Of a stretch of DNA of 64,000 nt, positions 535-61,275 are shown in pieces (the first letter of the stretch is position 1; each line of letters starts with the position of its first letter). The notes below the pieces were generated by a model. It was given only the letters and a program-made list of their open reading frames with translations. It was not told where the DNA came from and did not search any database. Source of the stretch: Lentisphaerota bacterium (GTDB lineage Bacteria > Verrucomicrobiota > Lentisphaeria > Victivallales > UBA1829); assembly GCA_015061915.1 (NCBI GenBank), contig SUVR01000002.1, forward strand, positions 124,670 through 188,669. The letters run 5' to 3'. The translations under genes were made by a program, and so were the position numbers.

Positions 535-609
535 TCCGGCATAGCTCAGCGGTAGAGTAGGTGGCTGTTAACCACTTGGTCGTAGGTTCGAATCCTACTG
601 CCGGAGCCA
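535..609 (+). tRNA. tRNA-Asn (GTT anticodon)
   Basis: The cloverleaf is complete. The acceptor stem TCCGGCA (535-541) pairs with TGCCGGA (599-605), followed by discriminator G and an encoded CCA (607-609). The anticodon loop CTGTTAA reads GTT, and the T-loop is GGTTCGAATCC. The 3' end from about 592 is the source of the tRNA-derived pieces in the repeat array that follows. Confidence 0.97.
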
Positions 610-652
610 TTTTCATTTTAAACGGAAATGAAAATGCGAAGGATGAGGATTA

Positions 653-3290: not shown

Positions 3291-4784
3291 ATGAAATTTA
3301 CCAGTACCAGAAGCCCTATGGCTCTCGACTCTGCCAAGGTCATTGCGCAGGGCATATCCAAAGAAGGCGGCCTTTTCGTGCCGGAATCCTTCCCCGCGAT
3401 CTCCGATGAAATGTTTGAAAAACTCATCGGCATGACCTACAAGGAACGCGCCGCAGCGATCCTTTCCCTGTACCTGACCGACTTCACGGAAGCCGAGATT
3501 CTCCACTGTGTCAACGGCGCATACACCGGCACTTTTGAGAACGAAGATCCCGCCCCGCTGGTGGAAGTCAAAACGGGTATGCACCTGCTGGAACTGTGGC
3601 ACGGCCCCACCTGCGCATTCAAGGATATGGCGCTCCAGCTGCTGCCGTACCTGCTGACCACCTCCGCCGGGAAAACCGCTCCGGAAAAGACCATGGTCAT
3701 CCTCGTGGCGACCTCCGGCGATACCGGGAAAGCCGCCCTCGACGGCTTCGCAGACGTGGAAAAGACCAAGATCATTGTCTTCTTCCCCCAGGAAGGCGTA
3801 AGCCCCATGCAGAAACTGCAGATGACCACCCAGACCGGAAACAATGTGGCAGTCTGCGCCATCCACGGCAACTTTGACGACGCCCAGACGGGCGTGAAAA
3901 ATATCTTTGCCGATGAAAGCATGAAAGAATTTCTCGCAGGCGCAGACATGGAATTCTCCTCCGCCAACTCCATCAACTTCGGTCGTCTCGTGCCGCAGGT
4001 GGTCTACTACGTTTCCGCATACTGCGATCTGCTGAAAAACGGAACGCTGAAGAAGGGAGAAGGCTTCAATGTGACCGTCCCGACCGGAAACTTCGGCAAC
4101 ATCCTTGCCGCCGTCTATGCCAAGAAAATGGGCGTGCCCATCAAGAAATTCATCTGCGCGTCCAACAAGAACAACATTCTGACGGACTTCATCCGCACCG
4201 GCACTTACGACCGGAACCGGGCGTTCTACACCACCACCAGCCCGTCTATGGATATCCTGATCTCCTCCAACCTGGAACGGTTGCTCTATCACCTGTACGA
4301 CAACGATACCGCCGCCGTCAGCGGTCTGATGGATCAGCTCAAGAAGAATGGCAAGTACAGCATCAGCAGCGACGTTCTGGCAAAACTGCAGAGCGAATTT
4401 TACGGCGGGTTCTGCGATGACACCGCAACCAGAGAAACCATCCGCAAACACTTCAAAGAAAACAATTACCTGTGCGATACCCATACCGGGGTCGCCGTCA
4501 ATGTGTACGAACAGTATGTGGCAGAGACGGGGGACAATACGCCGTGTGTGATCGCATCTACTGCGTCGCCGTACAAGTTCGCCGCAGCCGTTCTGGATGC
4601 CGTGAAAGATGAAAACGAAGCCATGCCGGACAACGAATTCGATATGGTGGAACGCCTGTCCGCTATCACCGGCACAAAGATCCCCGCCCCGCTGGCAACA
4701 CTGAAGGATAAAACCGTGCTGCACAAGACCTGCGTCCATAAGGAGGAAATGTCCGGCTTCATCCGGGACTTCCTGAAAAAATAA
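3291..4784 (+). CDS. thrC: Threonine synthase
   Basis: 497 residues, the length of the long (E. coli/yeast-type) threonine synthases. It catalyses PLP-dependent conversion of O-phosphohomoserine to threonine in the cytoplasm. Lys111 in HGPTCAFKDMALQ is the expected PLP lysine, ATSGDTGKAALDGF binds phosphate, and FPQEGVSPMQKLQM and FDDAQTGVK are further family signatures. The N-terminus MKFTSTRS matches the family start, so the ATG at 3291 is kept although the ribosome site is weak. The gene has its own promoter and ends in a large palindromic element shared with the convergent operon. Confidence 0.96.
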   Translation: MKFTSTRSPMALDSAKVIAQGISKEGGLFVPESFPAISDEMFEKLIGMTYKERAAAILSLYLTDFTEAEILHCVNGAYTGTFENEDPAPLVEVKTGMHLLELWHGPTCAFKDMALQLLPYLLTTSAGKTAPEKTMVILVATSGDTGKAALDGFADVEKTKIIVFFPQEGVSPMQKLQMTTQTGNNVAVCAIHGNFDDAQTGVKNIFADESMKEFLAGADMEFSSANSINFGRLVPQVVYYVSAYCDLLKNGTLKKGEGFNVTVPTGNFGNILAAVYAKKMGVPIKKFICASNKNNILTDFIRTGTYDRNRAFYTTTSPSMDILISSNLERLLYHLYDNDTAAVSGLMDQLKKNGKYSISSDVLAKLQSEFYGGFCDDTATRETIRKHFKENNYLCDTHTGVAVNVYEQYVAETGDNTPCVIASTASPYKFAAAVLDAVKDENEAMPDNEFDMVERLSAITGTKIPAPLATLKDKTVLHKTCVHKEEMSGFIRDFLKK

Positions 4785-4829
4785 GACGGAACGGAAGACA
4801 GCACACAAGCACGCGCGGGAGCGCGGCTC

Positions 4830-4870
4830 AGCCCTGTGGAAAAAACATTTTCCACAGGGCTTGCTTTTTT
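4830..4870 (+). terminator. thrC terminator (left limb of element A)
   Basis: 14-bp perfect hairpin with loop AACA, then GC and six T (4865-4870). Confidence 0.88.
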
Positions 4871-4924
4871 GCGGCGGCGGCAGCCACCATGCTCTCATGA
4901 CCCAAAGCCCACCGCCGCCGCCGC

Positions 4925-4960
4925 AAAAAAGCGCACGGCGTGGCTTCTGCCACGCCGTGC
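4925..4960 (-). terminator. Terminator of the rhamnosidase operon (right limb of element A)
   Basis: On the minus strand, the 12-bp GCACGGCGTGGC hairpin (4933-4960) is followed by GC and six T (complement of 4925-4930). Confidence 0.85.
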
Positions 4961-4998
4961 AGCCGCGCTCCCGCGCTCTTTTCCGTACAGTCAGCCTG

Positions 4999-7374
4999 TC
5001 AGTTCAATTCTGCCTCGAAGAGGGCGACCGGACATTCCTCATACTGTTCCAGTACCGGCTCGGTTCCGGCGGGATGCTTCACCTTGACTATCAGACCGGA
5101 GGGCGTCTTTTTCCATTCCACGCGGATCCTGCCGAGTGGGGTTGGCACTTCGCCGGCGCAATGGGTCATATCGGCTGCGTACGGCTTGACAAGGAACTTC
5201 CGGAAGCCGGGTTCCAGCGGTGTCACGCCCAGCAGACCGCTACCGGTGAAGAAAGGCATCACGCCGCTCCAGCCGTGGCACAGACTGCCTGCATCGGAAA
5301 AGTCCCGGTTTCCGCCGACCGTTTCCCAAAGGGACGTAGCGCCGGAAAGAACAATGGGTTCCAGAATCTCCCGCAGCGTATCGGTCAGATATTTCCGGGC
5401 ATCTTTTCCGTTGCCAATCATGGCGCAGACAAAATACCGGAGTGCGCTCAAGTCGATCTGTCTCAACCGTTTCTGATAAAACGCATCCAGTACATCCTTC
5501 TTCTTTTCCTCCGGCACGAGGCCATTGGCAAGCATGATTGCCTGAATATGCTCATACGCAAGGACATCCGGTCCCGGCTTCAATGCGTCATAGATTTTCT
5601 TTTCCGCGTTCCAGAACACGGCTTCGACCGCTGTTCCCAACCTGGCGGCTGCGGCTTCCAGCTGGTCTGCCCGTTCTTCGTTTCCGCAAATCTCCCGGTG
5701 CATCCTTGCCGCATTCCGCAGAGACTCGTAAAGATAAATATTGAACGGCGCCTGGGGCTGTTCCGTCAGCCCGCTGATGGTTCCGTTCCATTCGCAGAAA
5801 TTCCAGATGTGGGACCCGTTTCCGGACTGATAAAGCCCGCCTTCCACGGTGTCCGCCAACGCCCGGTCCAGAATCGTATCGATCTGATCCGCCCACTTTT
5901 TGAACAGGTCCGTTTTGCCGCTGTAAAGCCAGTGTTCGCAGATCTCCGTGATCCAGACAAGGGTGAAGACCGGGATCGTGATACTGGTGATCCCCGGCGA
6001 GGTCAGGGAGAGATACCGGTCGCCGTCGAAAGATTTTCCCAGCAGATCCAGACACGCGCCGGCGTAATCGTAGTTCCCCCAGACATAGTATCCGTAAAGG
6101 ATCTGGTTCCGGGAGTCGTAAGGATAAAGACCCTGTTCCCGCCACGGGCAGTCCTCGTAATGCTCGTGCATACAGAGGTTCAGGGTCCGGGCGGAGACAT
6201 CCAGCACCCGTTTCAGAAGCCGGTCCTCGCTCTCGAAGGTGGCGGCATCCGGCAGAGGGACTTCCAGCGGGATCATTCCGGCGTAATAGAGAGAGATTTC
6301 TGCGGCGGCTGGCGGCAGGATATGCAGTTCCACGTATCTGCCGCCCAGACGGCGATGGGTGTAAAGAAACTCGTTCATCCCCTCTTTGCAGATGTAACGA
6401 TCCGCAAAACTTCTGCCGCCGACACTGGCACGGCAGCGTCCATCCGCCAGATGTTCCCCGTGTGCGATGTCAATGACCGTTCCTTCCGGTGCGTTCAGAC
6501 GGAAGCAGAGAAAACCCACGGTCTCCCGCTGCAGGTCCAGCGTAACATAATATCCGTTTCCGGTCTCATCTTCTGCGATCTGCCGGAAGGTGTACGCTGC
6601 GCGGTTTCCGGCGGGGATCACCATTTCCCGGCGCAGACCGCCATCCATCAGGATCCCGGTATCGTATGCGCAGAAACAATCAGCAAGGTACTTTGGGAAC
6701 AGGGAATCGTGCATACAGGTGAGCGCAAAGGTGGGATATTCCTTTGTGCGGTGCAGGATGCCTTTCTGAGCGATCAGTACATCCGGACGGGGCAGTTCCA
6801 GCAGCTGGGGAATTGCACGACAACTCATCTTCCAGCCGTCGGTACCGGAGAGAATGGAGGCGGTCTGCCATGAGGTGACGTCATAGTCTGCGCTGCTTTT
6901 CCAGTCATCTTCCAGACGGGAATCGTATGCAAAAACATAGCCCAGCTGCCCGCTGACTTTCGTGCAGAGTCCGGAGGTGTAACTGCGGCTCTGCCGGGTG
7001 CGCCAGGTATCGTCCGTCGCCACGATCCGGATGCCGTCTTCCGTGGAGATGGCGGCACGCAGGAAGGGCGTTCCGGGGCGGTAGGTCAGGAACGCTTCGC
7101 CAAGATAATGGACTTCCACGGCGATGAGATTTTTTCCGGGCCGGAGCAGTCCGGTCACATCGTACCCGGAGTAAGTCCAGTCACCGGGCATATCCGCCAC
7201 CTGTGCAATGGGACAGCGGACGCCGTTGATCCAGACGCAGTATGTAGAGTCAGCGGCGATCTGAAGTTTCGCCGAACCGACACCATTCCAGAGGAATGTT
7301 TTCCGGAAATTCCAATATGAATCTTTCCCGGTTTCCGGTACGGGGCTCCAGATATATGCAGCATTTTCGATCAT
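4999..7374 (-). CDS. Alpha-L-rhamnosidase-like glycosidase (GH78-type)
   Basis: 791 residues. The N-terminal half is a beta-sandwich with VWINGV and a jelly-roll (YDVTGLLRPGKN), as in rhamnosidase accessory domains. The C-terminal half is the six-hairpin (alpha/alpha)6 barrel, with EDCPWREQG-YPYDSRNQ in the place of the GH78 acidic active-site segment. Near the end, GATSLWET and SLCHGWSG-LLGVTPLEPGF are typical GH78 signatures. It would release terminal L-rhamnose from glycans or glycosides. No signal peptide, so probably cytoplasmic. It is the last gene of a five-gene minus-strand operon ending in element A. A related six-hairpin specificity cannot be excluded. Confidence 0.8.
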   Translation of the reverse strand: MIENAAYIWSPVPETGKDSYWNFRKTFLWNGVGSAKLQIAADSTYCVWINGVRCPIAQVADMPGDWTYSGYDVTGLLRPGKNLIAVEVHYLGEAFLTYRPGTPFLRAAISTEDGIRIVATDDTWRTRQSRSYTSGLCTKVSGQLGYVFAYDSRLEDDWKSSADYDVTSWQTASILSGTDGWKMSCRAIPQLLELPRPDVLIAQKGILHRTKEYPTFALTCMHDSLFPKYLADCFCAYDTGILMDGGLRREMVIPAGNRAAYTFRQIAEDETGNGYYVTLDLQRETVGFLCFRLNAPEGTVIDIAHGEHLADGRCRASVGGRSFADRYICKEGMNEFLYTHRRLGGRYVELHILPPAAAEISLYYAGMIPLEVPLPDAATFESEDRLLKRVLDVSARTLNLCMHEHYEDCPWREQGLYPYDSRNQILYGYYVWGNYDYAGACLDLLGKSFDGDRYLSLTSPGITSITIPVFTLVWITEICEHWLYSGKTDLFKKWADQIDTILDRALADTVEGGLYQSGNGSHIWNFCEWNGTISGLTEQPQAPFNIYLYESLRNAARMHREICGNEERADQLEAAAARLGTAVEAVFWNAEKKIYDALKPGPDVLAYEHIQAIMLANGLVPEEKKKDVLDAFYQKRLRQIDLSALRYFVCAMIGNGKDARKYLTDTLREILEPIVLSGATSLWETVGGNRDFSDAGSLCHGWSGVMPFFTGSGLLGVTPLEPGFRKFLVKPYAADMTHCAGEVPTPLGRIRVEWKKTPSGLIVKVKHPAGTEPVLEQYEECPVALFEAELN

Positions 7375-44685: not shown

Positions 44686-44723
44686 TACAGTTCCTCGTTC
44701 CAGAGTTCAGATTTTACGGCTAT

Positions 44724-59556: not shown

Positions 59557-59584
59557 TTGAACATTTCCAATTCTGTGCTATCTT
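59557..59584 (+). promoter_or_regulatory. Promoter of gatB
   Basis: TTGAAC (59557-59562), 16 bp, TATCTT (59579-59584). Confidence 0.6.
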
Positions 59585-59633
59585 ATGCCATGAAAATTTT
59601 AATCATATAATAACAACAGCGTGAGGTGTCAAT

Positions 59634-61088
59634 ATGGCTGTCGCTTATGAAGCCGTCATCGGCTTGGAAGTTCATGTCCAGATCCGTACAAAAAGAAAAA
59701 TGTTCTGCAACTGCCCCAATACCTTCGGCGGTGAACCCAATACCGTAACCTGTCCGGTATGTATGGGCTACCCCGGGACCCTGCCCGTTCCCAATATGGA
59801 AGCAGTCCGCAAAGCTGTCGTTGCAGGGCTGATGTGTTCCTGCACCATTGCCAACCGGTGCAAATTCGACCGGAAAAGCTACTTTTATCCGGACCTGGTC
59901 AAAAACTACCAGATCTCCCAGTATGACCAGCCCCTTTGCGAACATGGCAAACTCCATATCTTCGGCAAAGGATTCTCCGGCGAACAGCTGCCCGATAGAT
60001 ATATCGGTATTACACGTATCCATTTGGAAGAAGACCCCGGAAAGTCCACACACTTTGCCAACTGCACCGGGCTGGACTACAACCGGTCTGGCGTGCCTCT
60101 TATGGAAATCGTTTCCGAACCGGATATGCGCTCCGCTGATGAAGCGTACGCATACCTCACATCCCTCAAACAGATCATGGAATATGCCGATGTCAGCGAC
60201 TGCGATATGGAAAAAGGGCAGATGCGTTGCGATGTGAACGTATCCATCCGTCCCCGCGGACAGGTTGAGTTCGGAACCAAAGTCGAAGTCAAAAACCTCA
60301 ACAGCTTCCGCTCCGCGCACCGGGCGATCAATTACGAGATCAAACGCCAGATCGTTGCCCTCGAATCCGGTGAAAAAATCACACAGGATACCCGCGGCTG
60401 GGATGACGAAGCCGGCGAGACCATCGTGCAGCGTACCAAAGAAAACGCCAACGACTACCGCTACTTCCCCGAACCGGACCTGCTGCCCATCGAATTCAGC
60501 AACGAAGATATCGAAAAGATCCGCACCGAACTGCCCGAACTCCCCGAAGCAATGCGCAAACGCTATGTGGAAGCATACGGGCTGACAGAATATGATGCTC
60601 ATGTGATGACGCTTGACCGCGCCCTGGCAAAATATTTTGAAGCCGCAGCCGGTAAGTCCGAATATCCCAAAGCAGTCGCAAACTGGATCCTCTCCGAACT
60701 GCTCCGCATCCTCGGCGAAAAAGAAATCAACATCGCAGACTGTCCCATCAGCACCGATCATCTGGCAGAACTGGTGGGGCTGATCCAGAAAGGTGCCATC
60801 ACCGGCAAAGTCGGAAAAGCCGTCTTTGAAAGTATGTTCGCAGAAGATGCCGGCAAAAGCCCTGCCGACATCGTCAAAGAAAAAGGTCTCAGTCAGGTCT
60901 CCGATGAAGGCGCTATCCTCCAGATGGTCGAAGCCGTCATCCAGGCGAACCCCGCTCAGGTCGAACAGTACAAAGCAGGTAAAACTGCCGTTCTGCAGTT
61001 CTTCGTGGGACAACTCATGAAGCAGAGCCGCGGTAAGGCAAATCCCCAGACCGCAATCAAGCTCTTCCAGGAAAAACTCAGTCAGTAA
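59634..61088 (+). CDS. gatB: Asp-tRNA(Asn)/Glu-tRNA(Gln) amidotransferase subunit B
   Basis: 484 residues: EAVIGLEVHVQIRTKRKMFCNCPN, CPVCMGYPGTLPV (zinc Cys), FDRKSYFYPDLVKNYQISQYD, RIHLEEDPGKSTH, and the YqeY-like tail with ILSELLRIL and FFVGQLMKQSRGKANPQ. With GatA and GatC it amidates misacylated tRNAs. gatA/gatC are not in the window. A GAGGT site precedes the ATG. Confidence 0.97.
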   Translation: MAVAYEAVIGLEVHVQIRTKRKMFCNCPNTFGGEPNTVTCPVCMGYPGTLPVPNMEAVRKAVVAGLMCSCTIANRCKFDRKSYFYPDLVKNYQISQYDQPLCEHGKLHIFGKGFSGEQLPDRYIGITRIHLEEDPGKSTHFANCTGLDYNRSGVPLMEIVSEPDMRSADEAYAYLTSLKQIMEYADVSDCDMEKGQMRCDVNVSIRPRGQVEFGTKVEVKNLNSFRSAHRAINYEIKRQIVALESGEKITQDTRGWDDEAGETIVQRTKENANDYRYFPEPDLLPIEFSNEDIEKIRTELPELPEAMRKRYVEAYGLTEYDAHVMTLDRALAKYFEAAAGKSEYPKAVANWILSELLRILGEKEINIADCPISTDHLAELVGLIQKGAITGKVGKAVFESMFAEDAGKSPADIVKEKGLSQVSDEGAILQMVEAVIQANPAQVEQYKAGKTAVLQFFVGQLMKQSRGKANPQTAIKLFQEKLSQ

Positions 61089-61131
61089 AGCAAAAGCCTG
61101 ATGGCTGAATGCCCGCCCGGAGCGGCGGCAT

Positions 61132-61179
61132 GACCCGGCAAAAGGTGTCGCAGACACCGCCTGCCGGGTCGCTTTTTTT
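61132..61179 (+). terminator. gatB terminator (left limb of element B)
   Basis: 9-bp GACCCGGCA stem with an upper 6-bp stem, then GC and seven T (61173-61179). Confidence 0.85.
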
Positions 61180-61232
61180 CTGCGGCGGAGTAAAAATATA
61201 ACGACAACACGCAAAGTCTGTGCCGCCGCAGC

Positions 61233-61255
61233 AAAAAAGCCTCCGCGCTGCGGAG
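61233..61255 (-). terminator. Terminator of the phosphatase operon (right limb of element B)
   Basis: Minus strand CTCCGC/GCGGAG hairpin, then GC and six T (complement of 61233-61238). Confidence 0.78.
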
Positions 61256-61275
61256 ATGCCGCCGCTCCGGGCGCA

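Follow-up and report, generated by a model that had tools for sequence, protein, structure and literature searches.

Element B, at positions 61114-61273 of the window (the whole 64,000-nucleotide stretch of DNA analysed here), is a near-perfect four-way cloverleaf with gatB on one side and a convergent phosphatase gene on the other. Cloverleaves of this kind probably serve as bidirectional intrinsic terminator modules for the two convergent genes, in a genus-restricted form whose stems would be kept by homogenisation of the arms together with selection.

Anatomy of elements B and A

Element B and its flanking genes are made up of the following features.

59634-61088, plus strand: putative gatB (named from an earlier reading of the sequence), left of element B
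61114-61131: left outer arm (CGCCCGGAGCGGCGGCAT), a perfect 18 bp inverted repeat with 61256-61273
61132-61170, plus strand: hairpin 1, followed by GCTTTTTTT; proposed terminator of the gatB transcript (83% complementary, predicted fold)
61171-61188: left arm of the T/A stem (GCTTTTTTTCTGCGGCGG; inverted-repeat comparison)
61189-61222: central loop, 34 nt
61223-61240: right arm of the T/A stem (CCGCCGCAGCAAAAAAGC; inverted-repeat comparison)
61241-61255 (approximate), minus strand: hairpin 2, followed by CTTTTTTG on the minus strand; proposed terminator of the phosphatase transcript (terminator scan)
61256-61273: right outer arm, 2 nt short of the minus-strand gene's stop codon
61276-62247, minus strand: putative phosphatase gene (named from the same earlier reading), convergent on element B

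The outer arms of element B are 100% complementary over their 18 bp, while the T/A stem (61171-61188/61223-61240), which begins with GCTTTTTTT and ends with AAAAAAGC, is 94% complementary over 18 nt and the arms of hairpin 1 (61132-61149/61153-61170) contain internal mismatches. All folds are minimum-energy predictions, and the cloverleaf was predicted for both strands of the element, with z = -11.1 for ssDNA and z = -10.9 for minus-strand RNA in comparison with shuffled sequence. A plain terminator scan detected the terminator of element B on the minus strand only, as a terminator-like site at 61256-61240, because hairpin 1 is mismatched internally; the same scan gave no terminator on the plus strand, where the hairpin and T-tract are recognised by sequence alone. 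The putative phosphatase contains HCAGGCDRTG, a phosphatase-type loop, and has an ortholog in the sister genome G001 with which it is 83% identical. A 543-aa open frame on the minus strand (window 59583-61214) lies antisense to gatB and exceeds it in length; it was not called as a gene by our codon-usage script.

The initial annotation had claimed that the plan of element B recurs 56 kb away, in element A (4813-4976), and that the outer arms of the two are related in sequence. The recurrence was borne out, in that element A has the identical order of parts in different letters.

3318-4784, plus strand: gene left of element A, its stop 28 nt ahead of the arm (codon-usage gene calls)
4813-4828: left outer arm (GCGCGGGAGCGCGGCT; inverted-repeat comparison)
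4830-4861, plus strand: hairpin 1, terminator-like (inverted repeat and terminator scan)
4863-4932: T/A stem, with 19-bp arms and a 32-nt loop (inverted-repeat comparison)
4933-4960, minus strand: hairpin 2, terminator-like (inverted repeat and terminator scan)
4961-4976: right outer arm (inverted-repeat comparison)
4999-7374, minus strand: convergent gene right of element A, its stop 22 nt past the arm (codon-usage gene calls)

All stems of element A are perfect (outer arms 16 bp, hairpin 1 14 bp, T/A stem 19 bp, hairpin 2 12 bp), and terminator-like sites were found by the terminator scan on both of its strands. The relation between the outer arms did not hold up: these are merely alike in G-richness, and sequence similarity between A and B at E<0.01 is confined to the T/A stem. 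Both elements lie between convergent stop codons, and in both a G+C-rich hairpin directly precedes a T-tract on each strand.

Recurrence, position and spread

In the window's genome (2.49 Mb in 31 contigs), GCTTTTTT was followed by AAAAAAGC with 40-70 nt between them at five places, all showing the plan, and a looser T/A pattern search gave further places beyond these five. A sample of 825 kb, comprising the window and other stretches of the same genome and amounting to one third of it, was searched with a detector seeded on paired T/A tracts, which returned 17 structures, 16 of them convincing and one, at window position 44690, doubtful; this detector found no cloverleaf in a dinucleotide-shuffled copy of the sample. 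A detector disregarding T/A tracts returned 27 four-way structures, of which about 22 lie between genes, and folding of each convergent gap revealed a few cloverleaves that the detectors had missed. By extrapolation from the sample the whole genome would hold some 50-80 cloverleaf loci, the density per Mb being somewhat inflated because two of the sampled contigs were picked for holding hits. The outer stem measures 9-39 bp across copies, and the junctions have few unpaired bases, mostly 0-3. Loop lengths in the sample ran from 1 to 38 nt; they are thus not shared among copies, as had been supposed, and a loop of 32-34 nt was rejected as a mark of the family.

Cloverleaves were found in 18 of the 28 convergent gaps of 100-450 bp in the sample, compared with 6/93 tandem gaps (Fisher P = 8e-10) and 1/73 divergent gaps (P = 6e-12), the genes that define these classes being called by a home-made, simple codon-usage script. 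The plan is therefore present at many convergent junctions besides those of A and B, and while the proposed concentration at convergent ends stands, its exclusivity does not, since a minority of copies occupy tandem gaps. As a rule, only tens of nt separate a copy from the stop codon on either side. The convergent gaps of the genome that measure 40-140 bp showed nothing beyond an ordinary hairpin, in many cases accompanied by a T-tract. In about 790 kb of sequence from relatives in five groups, a cloverleaf was present in 0/23 convergent gaps (P = 6e-7 against the 18 of 28), and the four-way structures seen in relatives have no paired T/A tracts at their centre and an imperfect look.

Pattern scans of the order (137 genomes) and the phylum (250 genomes) covered one T-tract flank pattern; among the matches listed, both scans gave paired-stem matches in this genus only, and those outside the genus were without the paired extension. 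A pattern scan of GTDB contigs gave at least 113 loci, and among the matches listed only L205, a Lentisphaeria MAG from water deer cecum, was a cloverleaf. So far, the cloverleaf form has been found in one genus only, which by the evidence of L205 probably belongs to gut Lentisphaeria. A 10-copy signal in genome G114 was rejected as cloverleaf, being largely a repeated identical 39-mer; this 39-bp unit (GCTTTTTTTTGCCAAGCTTTTTTTTCGCGAAAAAAAAGC) occurs in identical form in L250 and many other contigs and is distinct from the cloverleaves.

The commonest form of the cloverleaf consists of two opposed terminators linked by the T/A stem. In L035:9145 and L023:12714, however, one hairpin, preceded by A's and followed by T's, makes up the central arm and the side arms are plain, and in L047:11321 the terminator is located in a side arm. 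Terminator placement thus varies among copies, and the four-way plan is kept wherever the terminator sits.

Most copies have little sequence in common and no conserved ends, and neither a sequence consensus nor common terminal repeats of the REP/BIME or MITE-like kind were present among the copies compared. An all-against-all comparison found a few pairs that share half-elements, at 66 and 57 bits against a maximum of 31 in a reversed-sequence control; within L033:17174/L034:17034 and L037:17207/L080 a half-element comprising a hairpin, an outer arm and the T-stem is about 80% identical, a degree of sharing that suggests copying or recombination between loci. The modular assembly proposed in the initial annotation finds some sign in these few half-elements, although it does not extend to most copies. 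The term repeat family, likewise, fits the recurring fold and position and misleads as to sequence: it is fold and place, more than shared letters, that unite the cloverleaves. REP/BIME elements are, like the cloverleaves, palindromic, extragenic and common at gene 3' ends; REPs, unlike the cloverleaves, have a consensus sequence.

Mirrored change in sister genomes

Seven cloverleaf copies were compared with ortholog partners in G001, a genome of the same genus, or in L205. Covariation was found, the stems being kept across the seven pairs via mirrored changes in both arms. The outer arm GCGCGGGAGCGCGGCT of element A reads GCGCAGGAGCGCGGCT in the sister, where the partner arm is altered to match, and GCGCAGGGCGCGGCG of L083 reads GCGCAGGGCACAGCG, with two matched changes. 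A count by eye over the seven pairs gave about 11 double substitutions that are mirrored, a single mirrored indel of 2 nt, and one-sided changes in roughly the same number as the mirrored ones; by our own rough independence estimate, the chance expectation of mirrored cases is well under one. In one of the seven pairs, L085/L095, the core aligns in the orientation opposite to that of the flanking genes and has therefore been inverted between the outer arms.

Mirrored arm changes together with spacer inversion are the footprint of template switching at inverted repeats (PMC8794818, PMC8604942), and both are present here, the inversion once in seven pairs; we infer that template switching caused them. 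The papers cited deal with RNA genes and with coding repeats of yeast, whereas the cloverleaves form a positional class in bacteria. Template switching is reported to make arms alike and to turn spacers around (PMC8604942); it is also reported to generate perfect stems and to preserve them with compensatory change (PMC8794818). The earlier proposal of compensatory change under structural selection was thus right as to the mirrored change, but the change need not imply selection, because template switching can make it in one step.

The G001 contig that carries the ortholog of the phosphatase beside element B stops a few nt short of where the arm of the element is expected, and a search of G001, a 72% complete genome, gave no GatB. 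Several G001 contigs (L062, L093, L095, L099) break off no more than about 200 nt from a cloverleaf; the cloverleaf hairpins may impede sequencing or assembly in that genome.

Function and origin of the fold

As a bidirectional terminator the cloverleaf would work as follows. RNA polymerase coming from either side would make the outer arm, the G+C-rich hairpin and the U-tract, and would stop there, both hairpins presumably terminating in vivo. Two opposed terminators face each other, and the T-tract of one therefore complements the same-strand A-tract of the other; the two tracts would pair as the central stem, which continues into a G+C-rich part, and pairing of the flanks would give the outer stem and close the four-way junction. 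The outer and central stems would not be needed for first-pass termination, but they may keep any read-through RNA in an intramolecular fold and away from the opposing mRNA; a duplex of the two would be digested by RNase III (PMC7154746). The long perfect arms would both originate and be kept through template switching, or through recombination, between the inverted arms, a homogenisation that would sometimes flip the core, while selection for termination would keep the arms at gene ends. Two opposed terminators explain the four-way plan incompletely, because some copies have T/A tracts in a side arm or have plain arms.

It is rather unlikely that the cloverleaf is a by-product, in which opposed ordinary terminators seed inverted repeats, template switching perfects them and the outer and central stems are functionless. 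Such a process would leave the mirrored changes, mirrored indel and single core inversion as its expected footprint (PMC8604942, PMC8794818), and would fit the partial or imperfect forms at other convergent gaps. However, the convergent gaps of relatives lack the cloverleaf, the copies with plain side arms are unexplained by two terminators, and the other terminators of the window's genome show no added stem length. These ordinary terminators are no longer than those of relatives; a genome-wide lengthening of terminator hairpins was rejected as a candidate, and a genome-wide template-switch bias alone is therefore insufficient. The retention of SbcD also speaks against a by-product. SbcD belongs to a nuclease that cleaves palindromes in DNA, and since it is present in both species, SbcCD loss was rejected as the reason for the persistence of long palindromes.

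We think it unlikely that selection acts on the fold itself because it does something besides terminating transcription, whether as structured RNA or as a DNA cruciform. Such a function might be to shield the mRNAs of convergent genes against antisense pairing and against RNase III, or to be bound by a junction-recognising protein. The survival of the four-way plan when the terminator lies in a different arm (L035:9145, L047:11321, L023:12714), junctions with mostly 0-3 unpaired bases, and compensating change in both outer and inner stems are what such selection would produce. Yet template switching alone yields identical mirrored changes, the fold has no known protein or RNA partner and is found in one genus only, and 10/28 convergent gaps of similar length are without a cloverleaf, which is therefore not essential at every junction. 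The fuller version of this reading, a genus-specific class in which a four-way RNA or DNA cruciform fold with an invertible core acts beyond termination and is maintained by structure and not by sequence, appears to us equally improbable. That the cloverleaves are a family of mobile or dispersing elements, inserted at gene ends and then changing fast by paired substitutions, is very unlikely indeed: the few pairs with shared half-elements (against the much lower control maximum) and the restriction to a genus would agree with it, but most copies share little sequence and have no conserved ends, and species have orthologous sites in common.

Considered as bidirectional terminator modules, the cloverleaves resemble known bidirectional intrinsic (Rho-independent) terminators in having a hairpin and T-tract for each strand between convergent stop codons (PMC5381666, PMC1852404), and compensatory evolution of stems has been reported for Bacillus cereus terminators (PMC5381666). 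In contrast, known bidirectional terminators use one stem for both strands or separate, non-overlapping terminators (PMC5381666, PMC1852404), whereas the cloverleaf has two hairpins joined by a T/A stem inside an outer stem. Cruciform-forming inverted repeats of E. coli are also enriched just downstream of stop codons and are mostly parts of intrinsic terminators (PMC6060812), but that study was of simple repeats with spacers of <=8 nt, and nested four-arm structures fall outside its definition (PMC6060812). Full-text searches of the open-access literature found no description of cloverleaf terminators. With the same complex fold in different letters at the many loci extrapolated for one small genome, the cloverleaves offer a natural test of two questions: whether compensating changes in stems are due to selection on pairing or to template switching in one step, and what a convergent gene pair requires at its shared end.

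At the gathering score, the only Rfam matches in the window were three tRNAs, with no known RNA family at the elements. The 3' end of the tRNA gene at 535-606, together with downstream sequence (ATCCTACTGCCGGAGCCATTTTCATTTTAAACGGAAATGAAAA; window 590-634), recurs about 405 bp further on, at 995-1039, and this repeat could represent either the remnant of a tRNA or a duplicated attachment site.
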